Shown: piece by piece, positions 45,868 through 54,502 of the stretch
How positions within the stretch are numbered: position 1 is the first letter of the stretch
Layout: every line of letters begins with the position of its first letter
Translations under genes and position numbers: made by a program
NCBI GenBank assembly: GCA_021298355.1
Contig: JAJTEH010000001.1
Span: 1 to 64,000 of the forward strand
Origin: Flammeovirgaceae bacterium
Lineage (GTDB): Bacteria; Bacteroidota; Bacteroidia; Cytophagales; Cyclobacteriaceae
DNA: 64,000 nucleotides
Reading direction: 5' to 3'
The notes under the pieces: generated by a model
Databases searched by the model: none
Seen by the model: the letters and a program-made list of their open reading frames with translations, nothing else
What the model was told of the DNA's origin: nothing

Positions 45868-45900
45868 TTGTGAATTTCGTTTTTTATTCCATTAATTTTG
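45868..45900 (+). promoter_or_regulatory. Promoter of the arginine cluster
   Basis: TAATTTTG (45893-45900) matches TAnnTTTG and is preceded by TTG at 45868-45870, 22 bases upstream, near the expected -33 position. Transcription would begin near 45907, about 285 bases before the first gene. Confidence 0.5.
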
Positions 45901-45906
45901 TACAAA

Positions 45907-46190
45907 ACAAGTGTTCATGCCTTTTATCTAACAAAAAACATCTTACGCGAATTGAAAAAATTGTTCACCCCTTCTGAGGTTTCCGGTTTCGATACCAACC
46001 TCTTCAGTGCCACTCCGGCATTGTTCAACGCTCCACTCTCTGCCTGTCAGGTGACCAGGCGCCCGCACAGGCGAATCCGAATCTGAATCGTTAATCTTTC
46101 TTACTAACACCCTTGCGAAAATCAACAGTTGACTTTCGCCTTCTTGTGCTTTTGCACTGGTTTATCTATTCATTTTAACTTTTTCTACTT
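45907..46190 (+). promoter_or_regulatory. Structured leader of the arginine cluster, candidate attenuator
   Basis: The stretch 45672-46190 has no ordinary gene. It holds the promoter, then an RNA leader with stems GAGGTT/AACCTC (about 45976-46001), GCCTGT/ACAGGC (46042-46047 with 46067-46072), which competes with GCCTG/CAGGC (46042-46046 with 46056-46060), GCGAAA/TTTCGC (46115-46120 with 46134-46139) and GTGC-TTTT-GCAC (46146-46157). A reading frame crosses it and ends in Arg-rich codons. The first gene of the cluster starts 33 bases after the last hairpin. Control of transcription or translation by arginine supply is inferred, not shown. Confidence 0.5.
45952..46086 (+). CDS. Putative arginine-rich leader peptide
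   Basis: From a possible TTG start at 45952 the frame gives a 44-residue product starting MKKLFTPSEV and ending TRRPHRRIRI before TGA. Five Arg codons fall in the last ten sense codons: AGG 46057, CGC 46060, AGG 46069, CGA 46072, CGA 46078. AGG and CGA are probably uncommon in this AT-rich genome. A GTG at 46051 could start an 11-residue version. The Arg-rich end overlaps the competing stems. The real start is unknown and expression is not proven. Confidence 0.35.
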   Translation: MKKLFTPSEVSGFDTNLFSATPALFNAPLSACQVTRRPHRRIRI

Positions 46191-46931
46191 GTGACAAACT
46201 CAATACTTGTCAGAACAGCTACTGCTGCTGACAAACATTATGCTGAAACCATTACTACAGAAATGGCTGAGTCGGCCAAAGTACGTGGTACAGGAATTGC
46301 CAAACGCTCGCCACTGTATATCCAACAAAAGATGGAAGAAGGAAAAGCCGTTATTGCTTTAACACCCGATGGCACGTGGGTTGGCTTTTGCTACATCGAA
46401 TCGTGGGAACACGAAAAGTTTGTTGCCAACAGCGGCCTTATTGTTTCTCCGTTGTTTCGTAAAACAGGGGTAGCCACGGAAATCAAACGCAAAGTGTTTG
46501 AACTATCGCGCCAAAAATATCCGCATGCTAAAATTTTCGGATTAACAACTGGTTTAGCTGTAATGAAAATCAATTCTGATTTGGGCTACGAACCCGTAAC
46601 CTACAACCAACTAACAACCGATGATCAGTTTTGGAAAGGATGCCAGAGTTGTGTGAACTACGACATACTGATGAGTAAGAACAGACAAAATTGTATTTGT
46701 ACAGCCATGTTGTACGATCCTGTTGAAAAAGCAAAAGAAGCTGAAGAAAAGAAAAATCGCGAAGCAAATGCGCAAAACTTTTGGGGCCGAAGTTTGCGAA
46801 AAGACAATAAGGTTTTCGACCGTTGGGTGCGCTTCAAACAATTTGTATTACTTAAAGGATGGAAGAAGAAAGATGAGCATACAGATAAGCCCAAGAAAAA
46901 TGCTATTCTCAGTTTTTTGTTTTTCTGGTAA
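46191..46931 (+). CDS. GNAT family N-acetyltransferase of the arginine cluster, candidate N-acylglutamate synthase
   Basis: A 246-residue protein, GTG start. The GNAT fold spans about 5-150, with the acyl-CoA loop in LIVSPLFRKTGVATEIK (84-100). After it comes a four-cysteine cluster (Cys151, 154, 168, 170), which may bind zinc, and a basic helical tail. As the first gene of the arginine cluster, it could do the missing first step, acylation of glutamate; no classical argA or argJ is in the cluster. That role is inferred from position. Confidence 0.82.
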   Translation: MTNSILVRTATAADKHYAETITTEMAESAKVRGTGIAKRSPLYIQQKMEEGKAVIALTPDGTWVGFCYIESWEHEKFVANSGLIVSPLFRKTGVATEIKRKVFELSRQKYPHAKIFGLTTGLAVMKINSDLGYEPVTYNQLTTDDQFWKGCQSCVNYDILMSKNRQNCICTAMLYDPVEKAKEAEEKKNREANAQNFWGRSLRKDNKVFDRWVRFKQFVLLKGWKKKDEHTDKPKKNAILSFLFFW

Positions 46932-47008: not shown

Positions 47009-48208
47009 ATGAAAAAAGTAGTACTCGCATTTAGTGGTGGTTTAGATACATCTTATTGTGCAAAATATTTATCTGAAGATCTTGGCTATGAAGTACACGC
47101 GATAACAGTTAACACAGGAGGTTTTACTTCTGATGAAGTACACGAAATTGAAAGCAGAGCAAAAAATTTAGGCGTTGCTTCTCACATTACGGTAGATGAA
47201 GTACACAACTATTACCAAAAAGTAATTAAGTATTTAGTATTTGGTAATGTATTAAAGAATGCAACGTATCCATTAAGCGTAAGTGCCGAGCGTATGTCGC
47301 AAGCCTTAGCTGTTGCAAACTATGCCAAACACATACAAGCCGATGCAGTAGCACACGGTAGCACAGGCGCAGGTAACGACCAAGTTCGTTTCGATATGAT
47401 TTTACACATCATGCTTCCGGCTGTTGAAATCATTACGCCCATTCGCGACAAACGTTTAAGTCGCGAAGCTGAAATTGATTACCTCAAAAGCAAAGGTGTA
47501 TCCTTCAATTTTGAAAAAGCAAAATACTCTATTAATAAAGGTATTTGGGGAACTTCTGTTGGTGGGCAAGAAACACTTACTTCTATGGGGCAATTACCGG
47601 AAGAAGCGTGGCCAACACCCATTACTAAAACTGGTAGTGAAGAAATAAAATTACACTTTGAAAAAGGAGAATTAGTTGGCATAAACAATAAATTTTTTCA
47701 TCATCCAACCGAAGCGATACTTGCTTTGCACAGATTGGCTTCTCCATATGGCATAGGTAGAGATATTCATATAGGCGACACCATCATTGGTATTAAAGGA
47801 AGAGTGGGTTTCGAAGCCGCTGCGCCACTTATAATTATAAAGGCACACCATACTTTAGAAAAACACGTGTTAACCAAATGGCAATTAAACTGGAAAGAAC
47901 AATTGAGCCAATTTTATGGCAATTGGTTGCACGAAGGTCAATACCTCGATCCGGTTATGCGCGATATAGAAGCTTTTCTGGAGCAATCACAACAACAGGT
48001 TAGTGGAGTAGTGTCGTTAACATTATTCCCACATCGTTTTGTTATCAATGGTATCGAATCGAAATATGATTTAATGTCTTCGCGCTTTGGTAAATATGGA
48101 GAAATGAATGTGGGGTGGACAGGTGAGGATGTAAAAGGATTTACCAAAATAGCAGGTAATCAGGTTTCTATTTTTCATCATGTAAAAGCTGAAGCAGAGA
48201 AAGTATGA
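47009..48208 (+). CDS. argG: Argininosuccinate synthase
   Basis: ArgG joins citrulline and aspartate using ATP. The ATP motif SGGLDTSY (9-16) is intact, and HGSTGAGNDQVRFD (about 115-128) and SINKGIWGTSVGG are characteristic. The length of 399 is normal. In a pathway with acylated intermediates it acts after the deacylase (ArgE-like) step. It overlaps argC by 4 bases. Confidence 0.96.
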   Translation: MKKVVLAFSGGLDTSYCAKYLSEDLGYEVHAITVNTGGFTSDEVHEIESRAKNLGVASHITVDEVHNYYQKVIKYLVFGNVLKNATYPLSVSAERMSQALAVANYAKHIQADAVAHGSTGAGNDQVRFDMILHIMLPAVEIITPIRDKRLSREAEIDYLKSKGVSFNFEKAKYSINKGIWGTSVGGQETLTSMGQLPEEAWPTPITKTGSEEIKLHFEKGELVGINNKFFHHPTEAILALHRLASPYGIGRDIHIGDTIIGIKGRVGFEAAAPLIIIKAHHTLEKHVLTKWQLNWKEQLSQFYGNWLHEGQYLDPVMRDIEAFLEQSQQQVSGVVSLTLFPHRFVINGIESKYDLMSSRFGKYGEMNVGWTGEDVKGFTKIAGNQVSIFHHVKAEAEKV

Positions 48209-49185
48209 GTACAAAAAAAATAAAAGCAGGTATTGTTGGTGCTGCCGGTTATACAGGAGGAGAAACGCTTCGGCTATTGTTACAACATCCTGATGTAGAT
48301 GTGGTGTGTGCACAAAGCAGAAGCCAGGCAGGTAAATCAGTTGCAACGGTGCATAAAGATTTACTAGGCGAAACAAATTTACAATTTGCATCTGAAATTC
48401 AACAGCAGGTAGATGTGCTTTTCGTATGCTTGACTCATGGAGAAAGCAAAGAGTGGTTGAAGCAAAACGCACTTTCATTATCTACAAAAATTATCGATTT
48501 AGGAAATGATTTCAGAATTGATAATACAGTTGGCGAAAGAGAGTTTGTTTATGGTTTACCTGAGTTGTATCGAGATAAAATAAGAAAAGCACAAAACATT
48601 GCGAACCCAGGTTGTTTTGCCACAGCTATTCAATTGAGTTTGTTACCCTTGGCAAAGGAAAAAATATTGAATGAAGTTTTTGTTACAGGCATAACAGGTT
48701 CTACCGGGGCAGGACGAAAATTACAAGATACCTCTCACTTCACTTGGCGTTCTCATAATGTATCAGCTTACAAAACGTTAACACACCAACATCTTGGTGA
48801 GATTACTAAAAGCATTCAACATCTCCATCCTTCTTTTCAAGAAGGTATTCATTTTGTGCCGTGGCGAGGTGATTTTACAAGAGGAATTTTTACTTCGTCT
48901 GTAGTTACTTGTGATGTGAGTTTACTAGAGCTTAATGATTTGTATTCGTCTTATTACTCAACGCATCCTTTTACACATATAACACCTGCAACACTTGATT
49001 TAAAGCAAGTCATCAACACCAATAAATGTGTATTACAACTTGAAAAAGTTGGAAGTAAGTTGGTTATACATGCCGCGATAGATAATCTGATTAAAGGCGC
49101 GAGCGGACAAGCCATACAAAATATGAATTTACTTTTTGATTTAGACGAAACAGCAGGTTTAAAAATTAAAGCATCAGCATTTTAA
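48205..49185 (+). CDS. argC: N-acyl-gamma-glutamyl-phosphate reductase
   Basis: ArgC reduces N-acylglutamyl phosphate with NADPH to the semialdehyde. The NADP motif VGAAGYTGGETLRLL (11-25) and the catalytic-cysteine motif NPGCFATA (Cys137) are present. The length of 326 is normal. It starts inside the argG stop codon (ATGA) and is followed by argD after 10 bases. Confidence 0.96.
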   Translation: MSTKKIKAGIVGAAGYTGGETLRLLLQHPDVDVVCAQSRSQAGKSVATVHKDLLGETNLQFASEIQQQVDVLFVCLTHGESKEWLKQNALSLSTKIIDLGNDFRIDNTVGEREFVYGLPELYRDKIRKAQNIANPGCFATAIQLSLLPLAKEKILNEVFVTGITGSTGAGRKLQDTSHFTWRSHNVSAYKTLTHQHLGEITKSIQHLHPSFQEGIHFVPWRGDFTRGIFTSSVVTCDVSLLELNDLYSSYYSTHPFTHITPATLDLKQVINTNKCVLQLEKVGSKLVIHAAIDNLIKGASGQAIQNMNLLFDLDETAGLKIKASAF

Positions 49186-49195
49186 TTCTATCAAC

Positions 49196-50323
49196 ATGAA
49201 ATTATTTGATGTTTACCCATTATTTCCAATTGAACCTGTTAAAGCCAGTGGATCGTGGTTGTGGGATGTAAACAATAAAAAGTACCTGGATTTATATGGT
49301 GGTCATGCGGTTATCAGCATCGGCCATAATCATCCGCACTTTGTAGCAAGATTAACTGAGCAATTGCATAAAATTTCTTTTTACAGCAACAGTGTTAAAA
49401 ATACGTTACAAGAAGAACTTGCTGATAAATTAGGTCAGCTTTCAGGTTATCCTACGTATCAATTATTCCTATGTAACTCCGGAGCAGAAGCGAACGAGAA
49501 CGCCATCAAGTTGGCCTCTTTTGTAACAGGAAGAAAAAAAGTAATTGCTTTTCAAAAAGCATTTCACGGTCGTACGTCCGGAGCGGTAGCCGTTACAGAT
49601 AATAAAAAAATTGTTGCACCCTTTAATGCAGTGCATGAGGTAATTTTTTTGCCGCTTAATGATGTTGCAGCTCTTCATCAGCATATAGATGAAACAGTGG
49701 CGGCTGTTTTGATAGAAGGAATACAAGGAGTAGGAGGTATTTATATTCCGGAGGCATCCTTTTTACAGCAACTGTCGGCTATATGTAAGAAAAATGGTAC
49801 ATTATTAATTGCAGATGAAGTTCAATCTGGCTATGGCCGCACTGGTAAATTTTTTGCACATCAGCATGCCGATAGTCAACCCGATTTAATTACGGTAGCC
49901 AAAGGAATGGGCAATGGCTTTCCAATAGGAGGTGTTTTAATTCATCCTTCTATTCAACCGTGGAGCGGCATGTTAGGTACAACTTTTGGAGGCAATTACT
50001 TGGCTTGTGCAGCAGCATTGGCTGTGTTAGAAGTGATTGAAAAAGAGAATCTGATGCATCATGCACAAAAAATAGGAAATGAAATCTTAGAAAGATTGAA
50101 AGCTAGTCAGTATTTTGAAGATGTGCGAGGCAAAGGTTTGATGATTGGTTTTGATTTGCCACAACCTTTATTGCACTTAAGAAACACTTTGCTTACCGAG
50201 CACAGCATTTTTACGGGCGAAGCCAAAGCCAACACTATTCGTTTGCTACCTTCACTTGCATTAACAAAAGAAGAAGCAACCTATTTTTTTAGCGCATTAG
50301 AAAAAGAAACAAGTAAATATTAA
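49196..50323 (+). CDS. argD: Acyl-ornithine aminotransferase
   Basis: A class III PLP-dependent aminotransferase of 375 residues. The PLP-binding region is DEVQSGYGRTGKFF (207-220) with Lys236 in TVAKGMGNGFPIGG as the Schiff-base lysine. It converts the acyl-glutamate semialdehyde to acyl-ornithine with glutamate as donor. It can act with acetyl or succinyl substrates in this phylum. Confidence 0.95.
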   Translation: MKLFDVYPLFPIEPVKASGSWLWDVNNKKYLDLYGGHAVISIGHNHPHFVARLTEQLHKISFYSNSVKNTLQEELADKLGQLSGYPTYQLFLCNSGAEANENAIKLASFVTGRKKVIAFQKAFHGRTSGAVAVTDNKKIVAPFNAVHEVIFLPLNDVAALHQHIDETVAAVLIEGIQGVGGIYIPEASFLQQLSAICKKNGTLLIADEVQSGYGRTGKFFAHQHADSQPDLITVAKGMGNGFPIGGVLIHPSIQPWSGMLGTTFGGNYLACAAALAVLEVIEKENLMHHAQKIGNEILERLKASQYFEDVRGKGLMIGFDLPQPLLHLRNTLLTEHSIFTGEAKANTIRLLPSLALTKEEATYFFSALEKETSKY

Positions 50324-50324
50324 G

Positions 50325-51287
50325 ATGAAGCAATTTATTTCTGTTGAGGATGTTCCCGACATCCAACACTTGGTTAATAAAGCATTGGCTTATAAAATCA
50401 ATCCCTATTTGCATAGTACTTTAGGTAACAAAAAAAGAATGGGATTACTTTTTTTAAATCCTAGTATGCGCACGCGTTTAAGTACGCAAGTTGCTGCACA
50501 ACAATTGGGAATGGAAGTAGTAGTGTTTAATGTAGGGCAAGATGGTTGGGCATTAGAATTTGAAGAAGGTGCCATTATGCAGGGCCATACTGTTGAACAC
50601 ATTAAAGATGCCGCTCCCATCTTAGGAAAATATTTTAACGTGATAGGTGTTCGTACATTTCCAGGTTTACACAACAAAGAAGAAGATTATGCAGAGTTTT
50701 ATTTACAGCAAATTATACACTATGCAGGTGTTCCTATCATCAGTTTAGAGAGTGCCACGTTACATCCTTTACAAAGTTTAACAGACATTATAACTATTCA
50801 AGAACATTTTAAAGAAAAACGTAAACCAAAAATTGTGTTAACGTGGGCTCCGCATATCAAAGCGTTGCCACAATGTGTAGCCAATAGCTTTGCTCAATGG
50901 ATAACCCAATGGAATCAAGCTGATTTTGTTATCACGCACCCTGAAGGATATGAATTGGCTGAGAACTTTACCAAAGGTGCTATAATAACGCATAATCAGA
51001 CAGAAGCTTTACAAGACGCAGATTTTGTGTATGTAAAAAATTGGAGTGCTTATCGCGAGTATGGTAAGGTGTTAGGTAATCATTCAAACTGGATGTTGAC
51101 TATGGATAAACTTCAACATACAAATAATGCGAAAATCATGCATTGTTTACCTGTTAGAAGAAACATCGAAATAAGCGATGAAGTTTTAGACAGCCAGCGC
51201 AGTTTGGTAACCGAACAAGCAGCCAACAGAGTTTGGGCTGCGCAAGCTGTATTAAGTGAAATTTTAACGGCAAGCAGTCATGAATAA
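50325..51287 (+). CDS. argF': N-acyl-L-ornithine transcarbamylase (probably succinyl-type)
   Basis: A transcarbamylase of 320 residues. The carbamoyl-phosphate loop is SMRTRLST (47-54), and HPLQSLTDII and the C-terminal HCLPVRR are present. It belongs to the acetyl/succinyl-ornithine group (AOTC/SOTC), not to ornithine transcarbamylase, judged by FLNPSMRTR and the THTWAPH-like LTWAPHIKALP segment. In the 80s loop, the position decisive for acetyl versus succinyl (E92 in X. campestris AOTC, P90 in B. fragilis SOTC) is Val90 here. It starts 1 base after argD and overlaps argB by 8 bases. Confidence 0.9.
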   Translation: MKQFISVEDVPDIQHLVNKALAYKINPYLHSTLGNKKRMGLLFLNPSMRTRLSTQVAAQQLGMEVVVFNVGQDGWALEFEEGAIMQGHTVEHIKDAAPILGKYFNVIGVRTFPGLHNKEEDYAEFYLQQIIHYAGVPIISLESATLHPLQSLTDIITIQEHFKEKRKPKIVLTWAPHIKALPQCVANSFAQWITQWNQADFVITHPEGYELAENFTKGAIITHNQTEALQDADFVYVKNWSAYREYGKVLGNHSNWMLTMDKLQHTNNAKIMHCLPVRRNIEISDEVLDSQRSLVTEQAANRVWAAQAVLSEILTASSHE

Positions 51288-52068
51288 AGTATACATCATT
51301 AAAATCGGTGGACATGTATTGGATGATGAGCCATCCTTAAAAAAGTTTTTGACAGATTTCGCACACATTAAAGCACCAAAAATTTTAGTTCATGGTGGAG
51401 GAAAATTAGCTACTCGTATTGGAGACCAACTAGGTATTCAATCGCACTACGTAAAAGGTAGAAGGATTACCGATGAACAGACCTTGGATTTGGTAACGAT
51501 GGTATATGGCGGCTTGGTGAACAAACAACTAGTGGCTCAATTACAAGCTTTACAATGCAATGCCATAGGAGTAACCGGTGCCGATGGAAATTTAATACGA
51601 GCAACCAAAAGAGAAGTAAAAGGAACAGACTATGGTTTTGTAGGCGACATAACTCCAGAAAGTGTTCATTCTACTTTTTTATATTTTCTTTTAAAACAAA
51701 ATGTTGTTCCAGTGTTTGCACCTTTAACACATGCCAGTGGAACCATGCTTAATACCAATGCAGATACGATTGCCTCCGTATTGGCTATTGCATTAAGTAA
51801 ACATTTTGAGATTCGTTTACTTTATTGTTTCGAGAAAGCGGGTGTATTAAGAAATGTGCAGGATGAAAACTCTGTTATAAGTACACTTACAAAAGCTACC
51901 TACGAAAAATTACTTTCTGAAAATATATTTCACGATGGGATACTTCCAAAATTGGAAAATGCATTTAATGCCATACAAGCCGGTGTAAAGGAAGTGGTAA
52001 TTGGCGAACACAAACACTTGATTGCCAATTTAGGATATGAAACAAAAGGAACGTTAATTCTGCCGTAA
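51280..52068 (+). CDS. argB: N-acylglutamate kinase
   Basis: An amino-acid kinase-fold protein of 262 residues, with the glycine-rich ATP loop HGGGK (38-42), VTGADGNLIRA and the NTNADTIASVLA segment that binds the substrate. It phosphorylates N-acylglutamate. It lacks the N-terminal helix of arginine-inhibited hexameric NAGKs, so feedback control by arginine is not obvious from the sequence. Confidence 0.94.
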   Translation: MNKVYIIKIGGHVLDDEPSLKKFLTDFAHIKAPKILVHGGGKLATRIGDQLGIQSHYVKGRRITDEQTLDLVTMVYGGLVNKQLVAQLQALQCNAIGVTGADGNLIRATKREVKGTDYGFVGDITPESVHSTFLYFLLKQNVVPVFAPLTHASGTMLNTNADTIASVLAIALSKHFEIRLLYCFEKAGVLRNVQDENSVISTLTKATYEKLLSENIFHDGILPKLENAFNAIQAGVKEVVIGEHKHLIANLGYETKGTLILP

Positions 52069-52070
52069 TC

Positions 52071-53150
52071 GTGAAAGAAGATACTTTAACATCAGCAATA
52101 AAATTATTAAAACAATTGATTGCCATTCCATCGTTTAGCAAGGAAGAAGAGCATACGGCTGTGTTACTTTTTAAATTTTTAAAAAGTCAGGATATAAACG
52201 TACATCGCAAGGGAAATAATGTGTGGGCAACCAATAAGTTTTTCGATTTACAAAAACCAACTTTATTGCTCAACTCGCATCATGATACCGTTAAGCCCAA
52301 TGCGGGGTATACACGCAATCCGTTTAATGCAAGTGAAGAAGAAGGAAAGATTTTCGGATTAGGAAGCAATGATGCCGGTGCTTCGCTTGTATCCTTACTG
52401 TTTACTTTTTTACATTTTTATAAAGAAAAGAATTTAAGTTTTAATATTATTCTTGCGCTAACAGCAGAAGAAGAAATTTCCGGAAAAGGTGGAATTGAGT
52501 TTCTATGGAATGACTTACCTACGATTGACTGTGCCATTGTAGGAGAACCAACCAGCATGCAAGTGGCCATTGTAGAAAAGGGATTACTTGTTTTAGATTG
52601 TACAGCAAAAGGTAGGGCAGGGCATGCAGCACGAGAGGAGGGAGTAAATGCTATTTATCAGGCATTGCCGGATGTGCAATGGTTTCAACACTTTCAGTTT
52701 CAAAAAATTTCTGAAACACTAGGTAAAGTAAAAATGTCGGTAACTAGTATTCACGCTGGCCAGGCGCATAATCAGGTTCCGCCCGAATGTAATTTTGTAG
52801 TAGATATCAGAGTAACGGATTCCTATACGTTAGAGGAAGTGTTATCAATTATTAAAAATAATGTAAACTGCGAAGTAGTTCCACGTTCCATCCGAATCAG
52901 GCCTTCATGCATTGCTCTATCACATCCTTTGGTTCAAGCAGCTTCCACATTAGGGTATCAATTTTATGGTTCTCCTACCACTTCCGATCAGGCTTTGATT
53001 CCCGTTCCATCTATTAAACTCGGACCGGGCGATTCTGCCCGTTCGCATAGTGCAGATGAGTTTGTTTATGTGGATGAAGTTAAAAAAGGTATAGAAGGGT
53101 ATATTCAATTGATAGAAACCGTATGGCATCAAAATTTATTTTCTAAGTAA
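52071..53150 (+). CDS. argE: M20 family deacylase, ArgE-like
   Basis: A zinc-dependent M20 peptidase of 359 residues with metal ligands in HHDTVKP (His71, Asp73 region), the catalytic ALTAEEEISG (Glu pair) and GEPTSMQVAIVEKG. Position in the cluster implies removal of the acyl group from acyl-citrulline, the product of the argF' step. A GTG start 2 bases after argB is used. Confidence 0.9.
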   Translation: MKEDTLTSAIKLLKQLIAIPSFSKEEEHTAVLLFKFLKSQDINVHRKGNNVWATNKFFDLQKPTLLLNSHHDTVKPNAGYTRNPFNASEEEGKIFGLGSNDAGASLVSLLFTFLHFYKEKNLSFNIILALTAEEEISGKGGIEFLWNDLPTIDCAIVGEPTSMQVAIVEKGLLVLDCTAKGRAGHAAREEGVNAIYQALPDVQWFQHFQFQKISETLGKVKMSVTSIHAGQAHNQVPPECNFVVDIRVTDSYTLEEVLSIIKNNVNCEVVPRSIRIRPSCIALSHPLVQAASTLGYQFYGSPTTSDQALIPVPSIKLGPGDSARSHSADEFVYVDEVKKGIEGYIQLIETVWHQNLFSK

Positions 53151-53170
53151 AACAATTTAGCATAAGCAAT

Positions 53171-54502
53171 ATGAAACTTTGGCAAAAAGATTCTGTAAGT
53201 CACACTAAAGTAAATGATTTTACTGTTGGCAACGATAAACAATTCGATTTACGGTTAGCGCAATACGATGTGCAAGGCTCTTTAGCGCATATCAACATGT
53301 TGGCTTCGGTAGGCATATTGAAAAATGAAGAATGGCAAATCCTTTCAACATCTTTAAAAGAAATTTATGCACAAATTCATAGAGGTGAGTTTATAATAGA
53401 AGAAGGTATAGAAGATGTTCATTCGCAAATAGAACTGATGCTGACGAACAAACATGGCGATATAGGAAAGAAAATTCATAGTGCGAGATCGCGCAACGAC
53501 CAGGTGTTGGTAGACATGAAACTTTTTATGCGCGCTGAATTACAACAAGTAGTTAGTAAAGTAGAATCCTTATTCTATTTGTTGTTAAACAAAAGTGAGA
53601 AACACCAAAATGACTTAATGCCAGGCTACACCCATTTACAAATTGCTATGCCTTCATCATTTGGTTTGTGGTTTGGAGCATACGCTGAGAGTTTATCAGA
53701 TGATTTAATAATGATTGAATCAGCTTTTCGTTTGGTCAATAAAAATCCTTTAGGTTCAGCGGCTGGTTATGGTTCTTCTTTTCCTATAAACCGAACGTTA
53801 ACTACTACTTTATTGGGATTTGAAGATTTACATTATAATTCAGTATATGCCCAAATGATGCGAGGCAAAACAGAACGAATCGTAGCGCAAGCAATGGGCA
53901 ACGTAGCTGCAACTTTATCTAAATTAGCCATGGATATTTGTTTGTTCGTTAATCAGAATTTTGATTTTGTTTCTTTTCCTACTGCCTTAACGACAGGTTC
54001 AAGTATTATGCCGCACAAAAAAAATCCGGATGTGTTTGAGTTGATTCGGGCAAAGTGCAACGACTTGCAAGGTTTACCTAATCAAATAATTTTATTAACA
54101 AATAATTTACCTTCAGGCTATCATCGCGATTTGCAATTGGTAAAAGAAAAAATAGTACCAGCCTTTGCAACGCTCAATTCTTGTTTAGAAATGATGCACT
54201 TTATGTTATCTAATATAATAGTTAAAACTAATTTGTTAGCCGATGAGAAATACAAGTATATTTTTAGTGTAGAAGAAGTAAATAAGTTAGTTGTAGCAGG
54301 AGTTCCGTTTCGGGATGCCTATAAGCAAGTGGGGTTGGCCATAGAGAACGGCACGTTTACGTATAGTGGGCCTATACAACACACACACGAAGGAAGTATT
54401 GGGAATTTAAGTTTAGATAGAATAAAATCAAATTTTGAAAATACTAAGCGAATGTTTCCTTTTACAGGAATTGAAAAAGCTATTCAAGAATTGATCAAGT
54501 AA
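53171..54502 (+). CDS. argH: Argininosuccinate lyase
   Basis: ArgH cleaves argininosuccinate to arginine and fumarate. The fumarase/aspartase superfamily signature GSSIMPHKKNPD lies at 276-287, with HSARSRNDQV (103-112) and MPGYTHLQ (150-157). The length of 443 is normal. It is the last gene of the arginine cluster. Confidence 0.96.
   Translation: MKLWQKDSVSHTKVNDFTVGNDKQFDLRLAQYDVQGSLAHINMLASVGILKNEEWQILSTSLKEIYAQIHRGEFIIEEGIEDVHSQIELMLTNKHGDIGKKIHSARSRNDQVLVDMKLFMRAELQQVVSKVESLFYLLLNKSEKHQNDLMPGYTHLQIAMPSSFGLWFGAYAESLSDDLIMIESAFRLVNKNPLGSAAGYGSSFPINRTLTTTLLGFEDLHYNSVYAQMMRGKTERIVAQAMGNVAATLSKLAMDICLFVNQNFDFVSFPTALTTGSSIMPHKKNPDVFELIRAKCNDLQGLPNQIILLTNNLPSGYHRDLQLVKEKIVPAFATLNSCLEMMHFMLSNIIVKTNLLADEKYKYIFSVEEVNKLVVAGVPFRDAYKQVGLAIENGTFTYSGPIQHTHEGSIGNLSLDRIKSNFENTKRMFPFTGIEKAIQELIK

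Follow-up and report, generated by a model that had tools for sequence, protein, structure and literature searches.

A candidate arginine-sensing leader upstream of the GNAT-arginine biosynthesis operon in Cyclobacteriaceae and related Bacteroidota

The GNAT-arg operon and its leader region

The window, a 64,000-nucleotide stretch of DNA from an environmental bacterium whose lineage is Cyclobacteriaceae and Chryseolinea-like, carries an arginine biosynthesis operon on its + strand; the closest named relative is a Cyclobacteriaceae MAG with 96% identity in the GNAT product. The first gene of the operon (46191..46931) begins with a GTG at 46191 and encodes a GNAT acetyltransferase, which matches Pfam Acetyltransf_1 at 21.8 bits (cut-off 20.7). 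Behind it (47009..54502, +) lie argG, argC, argD, N-acetylornithine carbamoyltransferase, argB, an ArgE/DapE-type deacylase and argH, each named after its best-matching NCBIfam family; argC, argB and argH exceed the curated NCBIfam cut-off and the remaining arg genes fall below it. An ArgG start motif follows the GNAT gene in 52 of 63 related loci, and one further locus is too short. No GNAT match was obtained in G003, a genome of the same genus listed as 99% complete.

The region in front of the operon was proposed by the initial annotation to be an arginine attenuator. The exact TAnnTTTG box that it placed upstream is present in the letters as TAATTTTG (45893..45900, +), and a box of this form, which we take to be the Bacteroidota-type -7 promoter element, lies upstream of 40 of 42 clade leaders. 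From its position we infer that the leader RNA begins near 45906. The leader ORF, LKKLFTPSEVSGFDTNLFSATPALFNAPLSACQVTRRPHRRIRI (45952..46086, +), has 44 codons followed by TGA and probably starts at the TTG at 45952, which is kept in relatives; a second TTG located within the promoter box was set aside as the start. Bacteroidota initiate translation largely without Shine-Dalgarno pairing. The ORF ends ACC AGG CGC CCG CAC AGG CGA ATC CGA ATC TGA, with the Arg codon cluster running from the first AGG to the last CGA (46057..46080, +). Five of the last ten sense codons are thus Arg, just as had been noted, and the GC-rich patch described there is equally real, with 63% GC at 46030-46086 against 37% window-wide. 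Two hairpins separate the ORF from the GNAT gene, both read correctly from the letters at the outset: hairpin T, a candidate terminator (GCGAAAATCAACAGTTGACTTTCGC, 46115..46139, +, then CTTCTTGT), and a small GTGC-TTTT-GCAC hairpin (GTGCTTTTGCAC, 46146..46157, +).

Arginine coding is conserved at the end of the leader ORF

Among named organisms, leaders of the same type are found in Chryseosolibacter, Parachryseolinea, Ohtaekwangia koreensis, Dawidia soli and Chryseolinea serpens, among others. Fifty-four leaders ending in Arg-Ile were collected, of which 43 remained after removal of near-identical ones and 37 entered the structure and codon alignment. Six were left out, four because hairpin T is displaced or weak (L212, L245, L251 and L218) and two as divergent leader types, though with a hairpin near the usual place (L215 and L253); the counts for hairpin and codons that follow are tilted somewhat in favor by this selection. 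The penultimate codon (position -2) specifies Arg in 37/37 aligned leaders, with each of the six Arg codons in use; position -5 is Arg in 36/37, written with five. Over the last 16 alignment columns, codon position 3 varies most (0.56, compared with 0.34 and 0.24 at the other two positions). The use of all six Arg codons together with the variable third position points to selection for arginine and not for one nucleotide motif. Conservation of the Arg codons in relatives had been named in advance as one check on the attenuator proposal, and the proposal came through it. The N-terminal part of the leader peptide is poorly conserved among the same leaders, and a Pfam search with the 44-residue peptide, a query of limited power, returned no family at E up to 0.01.

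Two further features of the ORF end were observed. Position -1 is Ile in 37/37 leaders (in the window, within 46081-46086), an invariance for which codon sensing alone gives no explanation, and the sequence around the leader stop is often GTATCTGATAC in the clade alignment.

Within 464 kb of the source genome (the window plus 400 kb), only 3 of 329 gene-sized ORFs, this one included, have at least five Arg codons in the tail (last 12 codons) of an upstream ORF. Another of the three, in front of a histone-deacetylase-like gene (L306:6175-7077), was rejected as a probable chance case that overlaps what seems to be coding sequence further upstream. At the lower threshold of at least three Arg codons, 41 of the 329 qualify; one Arg-rich tail alone is therefore not decisive, and conservation is the deciding evidence.

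Arg-rich leaders precede the GNAT gene in many Bacteroidota

A total of 255 distinct upstream regions was gathered through GNAT searches of relatives (matches in 43/59 genomes), the class (136/395), the family (267/295, best 30 loci used) and named genome contigs (64 loci). In 163 of the 255 there is an ORF that stops 40-260 nt ahead of the GNAT gene and has at least three Arg among its 12 final codons. When one region was taken per genus (118 genera, 46 families), 66.9% contained a tail with at least three Arg, as compared to 14.1% of dinucleotide shuffles and 22.9% of reverse strands; tails with at least four Arg were found in 39.0%, against 2.2% and 8.5%, respectively. Pro was the sole other amino acid clearly raised, with at least three residues in 23.7% of the genera (10.0% and 5.9% in the controls). 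Arg-rich leaders lie upstream of the GNAT gene in 25/37 families of the class sample, where single matches can be chance. The tails diverge in sequence from one family to the next, with Arg richness as their main common trait. Among 20 named or chosen loci, 11 reach at least three Arg; no such leader was found at the Alistipes (3 loci), Draconibacterium (3 loci) and Flavobacterium chilense loci.

Outside the clade, a different hairpin recurs. Of 163 non-clade regions in front of the GNAT gene, 39 contain a TAYGN-pentaloop hairpin with changing stems (4.7 expected by shuffling), for example L040, L041, L050, L053, L058-L061, L068, L070, L080, L191 and others; many are located soon after the leader stop, followed by a pyrimidine-rich tail with no clean T run. 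In one family (f73: G447, G430, G391, G327, G411, G370 and G191) a hairpin after the leader stop contains the common core TAGGTGAGTCC or a similar sequence, and the outer stems differ around it.

No leader was seen where an ArgR gene adjoins the GNAT gene

The protein ArgR regulates arginine genes. ArgR (PF01316) scored over the cut-off in 16/395 class genomes, and in 11 of these, belonging to 4 families, its gene lies directly upstream of the GNAT gene on the same strand. Four of the other five have no GNAT match, and the fifth (G221) has a borderline ArgR match elsewhere. For the comparison, 132 of the 136 GNAT-containing class genomes were used; weak matches in G290, G100 and G338 were dropped, G421 was absent and second GNAT copies were not used. 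None of the 11 genomes with ArgR adjoining GNAT has a leader, as against 77 of the 121 others (p 3.5e-5, with the borderline match of G221, 26.9 bits on another contig, counted as no ArgR). Recounting G221 as an ArgR genome gives 1/12 against 76/120 (p 2.8e-4). Since the 11 ArgR genomes fall in only 4 families, the independent events behind this pattern may be few. Of 15 clade genomes tested, none had ArgR over the cut-off and two had weak sub-threshold matches. Forty-four of the 121 genomes without ArgR next to GNAT showed no leader at the threshold used; some are just under it, such as G436, G378, G102 and G243 with two Arg, and families f13, f26, f35 and f41 have neither leader nor ArgR.

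A four-codon mini-ORF precedes the leader ORF

Between the promoter box and the leader ORF, the window contains a mini-ORF, ATG CCT TTT ATC TAA (M-P-F-I-stop; 45917..45931, +). A mini-ORF of this form (ATG, three codons and a stop) is located 32-44 nt before the TTG in 37/42 clade leaders, where shuffling predicts 2.9. Its third residue is Phe in 36 of the 37, giving the pattern M-x-F-x-stop, and its stop is TAA in 20, TGA in 13 and TAG in 4. Relative to the leader ORF, each of the three frames is represented (8, 18 and 11 mini-ORFs). This frame independence argues against frameshifting and would be consistent with reinitiation or ribosome loading. In other families, mini-ORFs were found in 3/85 regions, with 5.8 expected.

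Hairpin T covaries and the end of the ORF shows an excess of predicted downstream pairing

The structure of hairpin T was derived from the sequence-only alignment of 37 leaders and was also scored on it. The arms of T pair in 91.8% of cells; sliding the partner lowers this to 29-48%, and none of 500 column shuffles exceeded 64%. The double-change score of T is 0.80, with maxima of 0.15 for slid partners and 0.23 for shuffled columns. We rely on this alignment because permutation tests on the hairpin arms, which had been chosen by complementarity, say nothing independent about the hairpins and are circular for them. In the clade, the sequence following T gives better folds than any of its 300 shuffles, and so does the spacer between leader stop and T, but in the window that spacer is unfolded. 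The whole window leader folds only modestly better than shuffles (z -1.95, 5/200 as good). Terminator-like sites between the leader stop and the gene were identified in 22/43 clade leaders, where shuffles gave 1.9 on average and never more than 4, and in 12/66 other genera, where they gave 2.8 on average and never more than 7. A strict terminator scan of the window returned none, and the T tract after hairpin T is weak.

Attenuation implies that a ribosome at the stop covers the end of the ORF and that one stalled at the first codons of the Arg cluster leaves it free. The candidate antiterminator strand consists of the final 18 nt of the ORF (46066..46083, +). Their predicted pairing with positions +40..+100 exceeds that of synonymous recodings, both in the 37 clade leaders (z -4.86) and in 66 other genera (z -2.66), with smaller values for +13..+60 (z -2.78 and -1.51, respectively). 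No such excess was obtained for the two ORF segments before them (z +0.5 to +2.5). A possible duplex in the window joins AGGCGAA (46069-46075) to TTCGCCT (46135-46141). Among 26 segment pairs tested, the Arg region scored z -3.2 and -3.6 with the stretch behind T, and -2.9 with the far T arm plus the stretch behind, and the distal part scored -2.8, values that are weak individually and take no account of phylogeny. Pairing of the Arg region with either T arm alone was no better than with swapped partners.

The initial annotation had proposed a switch made of two mutually exclusive small stems overlapping the Arg codons, GCCTG/CAGGC (46042-46046/46056-46060) and GCCTGT/ACAGGC (46042-46047/46067-46072). 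Both stems are present in the window; as a switch they did not hold up, for no coevolution was seen between the Arg region and the segment carrying their 5' arm (S1:S2 z +1.85), and the stems are missing in several subgroups. A better candidate strand would be the 18-nt ORF end, paired with the far T arm and the stretch behind it.

Folding of the window predicts a probability of hairpin T of 0.52 with the ribosome stalled at the first Arg codon and 0.94 with the ribosome at the stop. The predicted probability drops by more than 0.2 on stalling in 4/37 leaders, the window included, and shows the reverse in 2; in most relatives T is predicted as formed in every modeled state, and a classical all-or-none T switch is not predicted for them. 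A mutually exclusive switch has statistical backing from the distal pairing, and the modeled folds give no clean two-state structure.

Discussion

Comparison among relatives indicates that Arg coding is conserved, that hairpin T covaries, that the ORF end pairs downstream more strongly than its recodings do, and that leader and ArgR gene do not occur together. It is very probable that ribosome-read Arg codons control the operon in cis. That this amounts to arginine attenuation through premature termination of transcription is the reading we favor, with fair rather than strong confidence. It is supported by the conserved Arg, the enrichment across genera, the T covariation, the distal pairing, the terminator-like sites, the absence of leaders beside ArgR genes and the arginine-synthesis operon downstream; it is weakened by the predicted stability of T in most modeled states, the lack of coevolution between the Arg region and the T arms alone, the negative strict scan of the window, the invariant Ile and the 44/121 leaderless genomes. 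The initial proposal of an arginine attenuator is in this sense supported, with Arg-rich leaders extending over many families.

We infer translation of the leader, stalling, the sign of the regulation and termination as the output, in the following form. A ribosome would translate the 44-codon leader peptide into its terminal Arg codon cluster. When arginine is plentiful, it would reach the stop and cover the ORF end, so that hairpin T, followed by the small hairpin, could form and most likely end transcription ahead of the GNAT-arg operon. When charged Arg-tRNA is scarce, it would stall on the first Arg codons and leave the ORF end free to pair with the far T arm and the stretch behind, and RNA polymerase would read on.

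The same sensor may act through another output, namely Rho-dependent termination, translation initiation or mRNA stability, as in Salmonella speF/orf34, for which excerpts of PMC6386406 describe a mechanism of this type that uses two Arg codons. The clade spacer that folds better than any of its shuffles, the TAYGN hairpins of the non-clade regions, many of them soon after a leader stop, and the stability of T together with its weak T tract in the window would all suit such an output. The excess of terminator-like sites in the clade speaks against it, as does a spacer that in the window has no fold; we consider a non-intrinsic output rather unlikely on this analysis. An arrest peptide, whose nascent chain would respond to arginine (or to a metabolite related to it) in place of codon supply and halt the ribosome at or near the stop codon, would fit the conserved C-terminal part within the clade, with its Ile at -1 and Arg at -2 in every aligned leader. 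The fungal arginine attenuator peptide is the model for this reading. Between families the tails differ and share mainly their Arg richness, which makes an arrest peptide improbable.

That the ORF is Arg-rich by chance, or encodes an ordinary small protein without any part in regulation, is very improbable indeed. Arg-rich tails are common enough in the source genome (41/329), and the named Alistipes, Draconibacterium and F. chilense loci have no such leader; against this stand the conservation of Arg through six codons, the enrichment over genera, the missing Pfam family and the poorly conserved N-terminal part.

Returning to ribosome-mediated attenuation, the mini-ORF, an unusual uORF if confirmed, raises a conceivable, on balance doubtful, extension to a two-uORF arginine sensor. 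The mini-ORF would be translated first, and reinitiation at the weak TTG plus stalling at the Arg codons would set operon expression in a clade without recognizable ArgR, leader and ArgR gene having been swapped at one site during Bacteroidota evolution. Apart from this extension, the comparison places a probable RNA device and a repressor gene at the same position in different families. The leader offers a concrete, testable model for the way in which arginine synthesis may be controlled in many Bacteroidota that lack ArgR, and would extend ribosome-sensed attenuation to arginine biosynthesis in this phylum.

The trp, his, leu and thr leaders are ribosome-mediated transcription attenuators of amino-acid operons. 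Like them, the window has a short ORF rich in codons for the end product, hairpins behind it and a biosynthetic operon downstream; unlike them, it concerns arginine, has a TTG start and a mini-ORF in front, and lacks a clean mutually exclusive hairpin pair. ArgR (PF01316) likewise serves arginine gene regulation, and its gene occupies the site of the leader in 11 genomes, but it is a protein repressor. Bacteroid-trp RNA, which precedes trp genes and is linked to Trp attenuation, resembles the leader as a candidate cis-regulatory RNA in Bacteroidota. It appears as RF01692 among the entries listed in PMC2864571. Rfam models, Bacteroid-trp and T-box included, gave no gathering-score match in the window or 40 related loci, only weak sub-threshold ones.

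A literature search returned no recognized description of an arginine leader peptide for a Bacteroidota arginine biosynthesis operon; Lopatovskaya et al., 2010 and the supplement of PMC9723704 might hold one. Excerpts of PMC9723704 report clues to leader-peptide attenuation upstream of Flavobacterium psychrophilum amino-acid operons and do not name arginine there, and those of PMC7366714 mention leader-like sORFs in Bacteroides thetaiotaomicron. By term counts, the word arginine is absent from the main text of PMC2965389 and PMC4833913.

Arginine-sensing uORFs are described in two other bacteria. In S. aureus rbfL, as excerpted from PMC13009471, Arg codons of a uORF sense arginine limitation as proposed here. 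There, however, the stalled ribosome occludes the ribosome binding site from which a biofilm regulator is translated; the sign is opposite, and the target is not an arg operon. In Salmonella speF/orf34, according to the excerpts of PMC6386406, Arg codons in the leader sense arginine and a hairpin just downstream of the stop decides the outcome. The window leader gave no match to the SpeFL/orf34 family, named there as PF10940, in a 44-residue query of limited power. The speF system belongs to a polyamine gene in gamma-proteobacteria and has two Arg codons near the ORF start, unlike the many Arg codons at the ORF end in the window. Both have Arg codons in a leader ORF and a hairpin past its stop. 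Of the tested mechanisms, speF/orf34 as excerpted is the nearest to the window leader.
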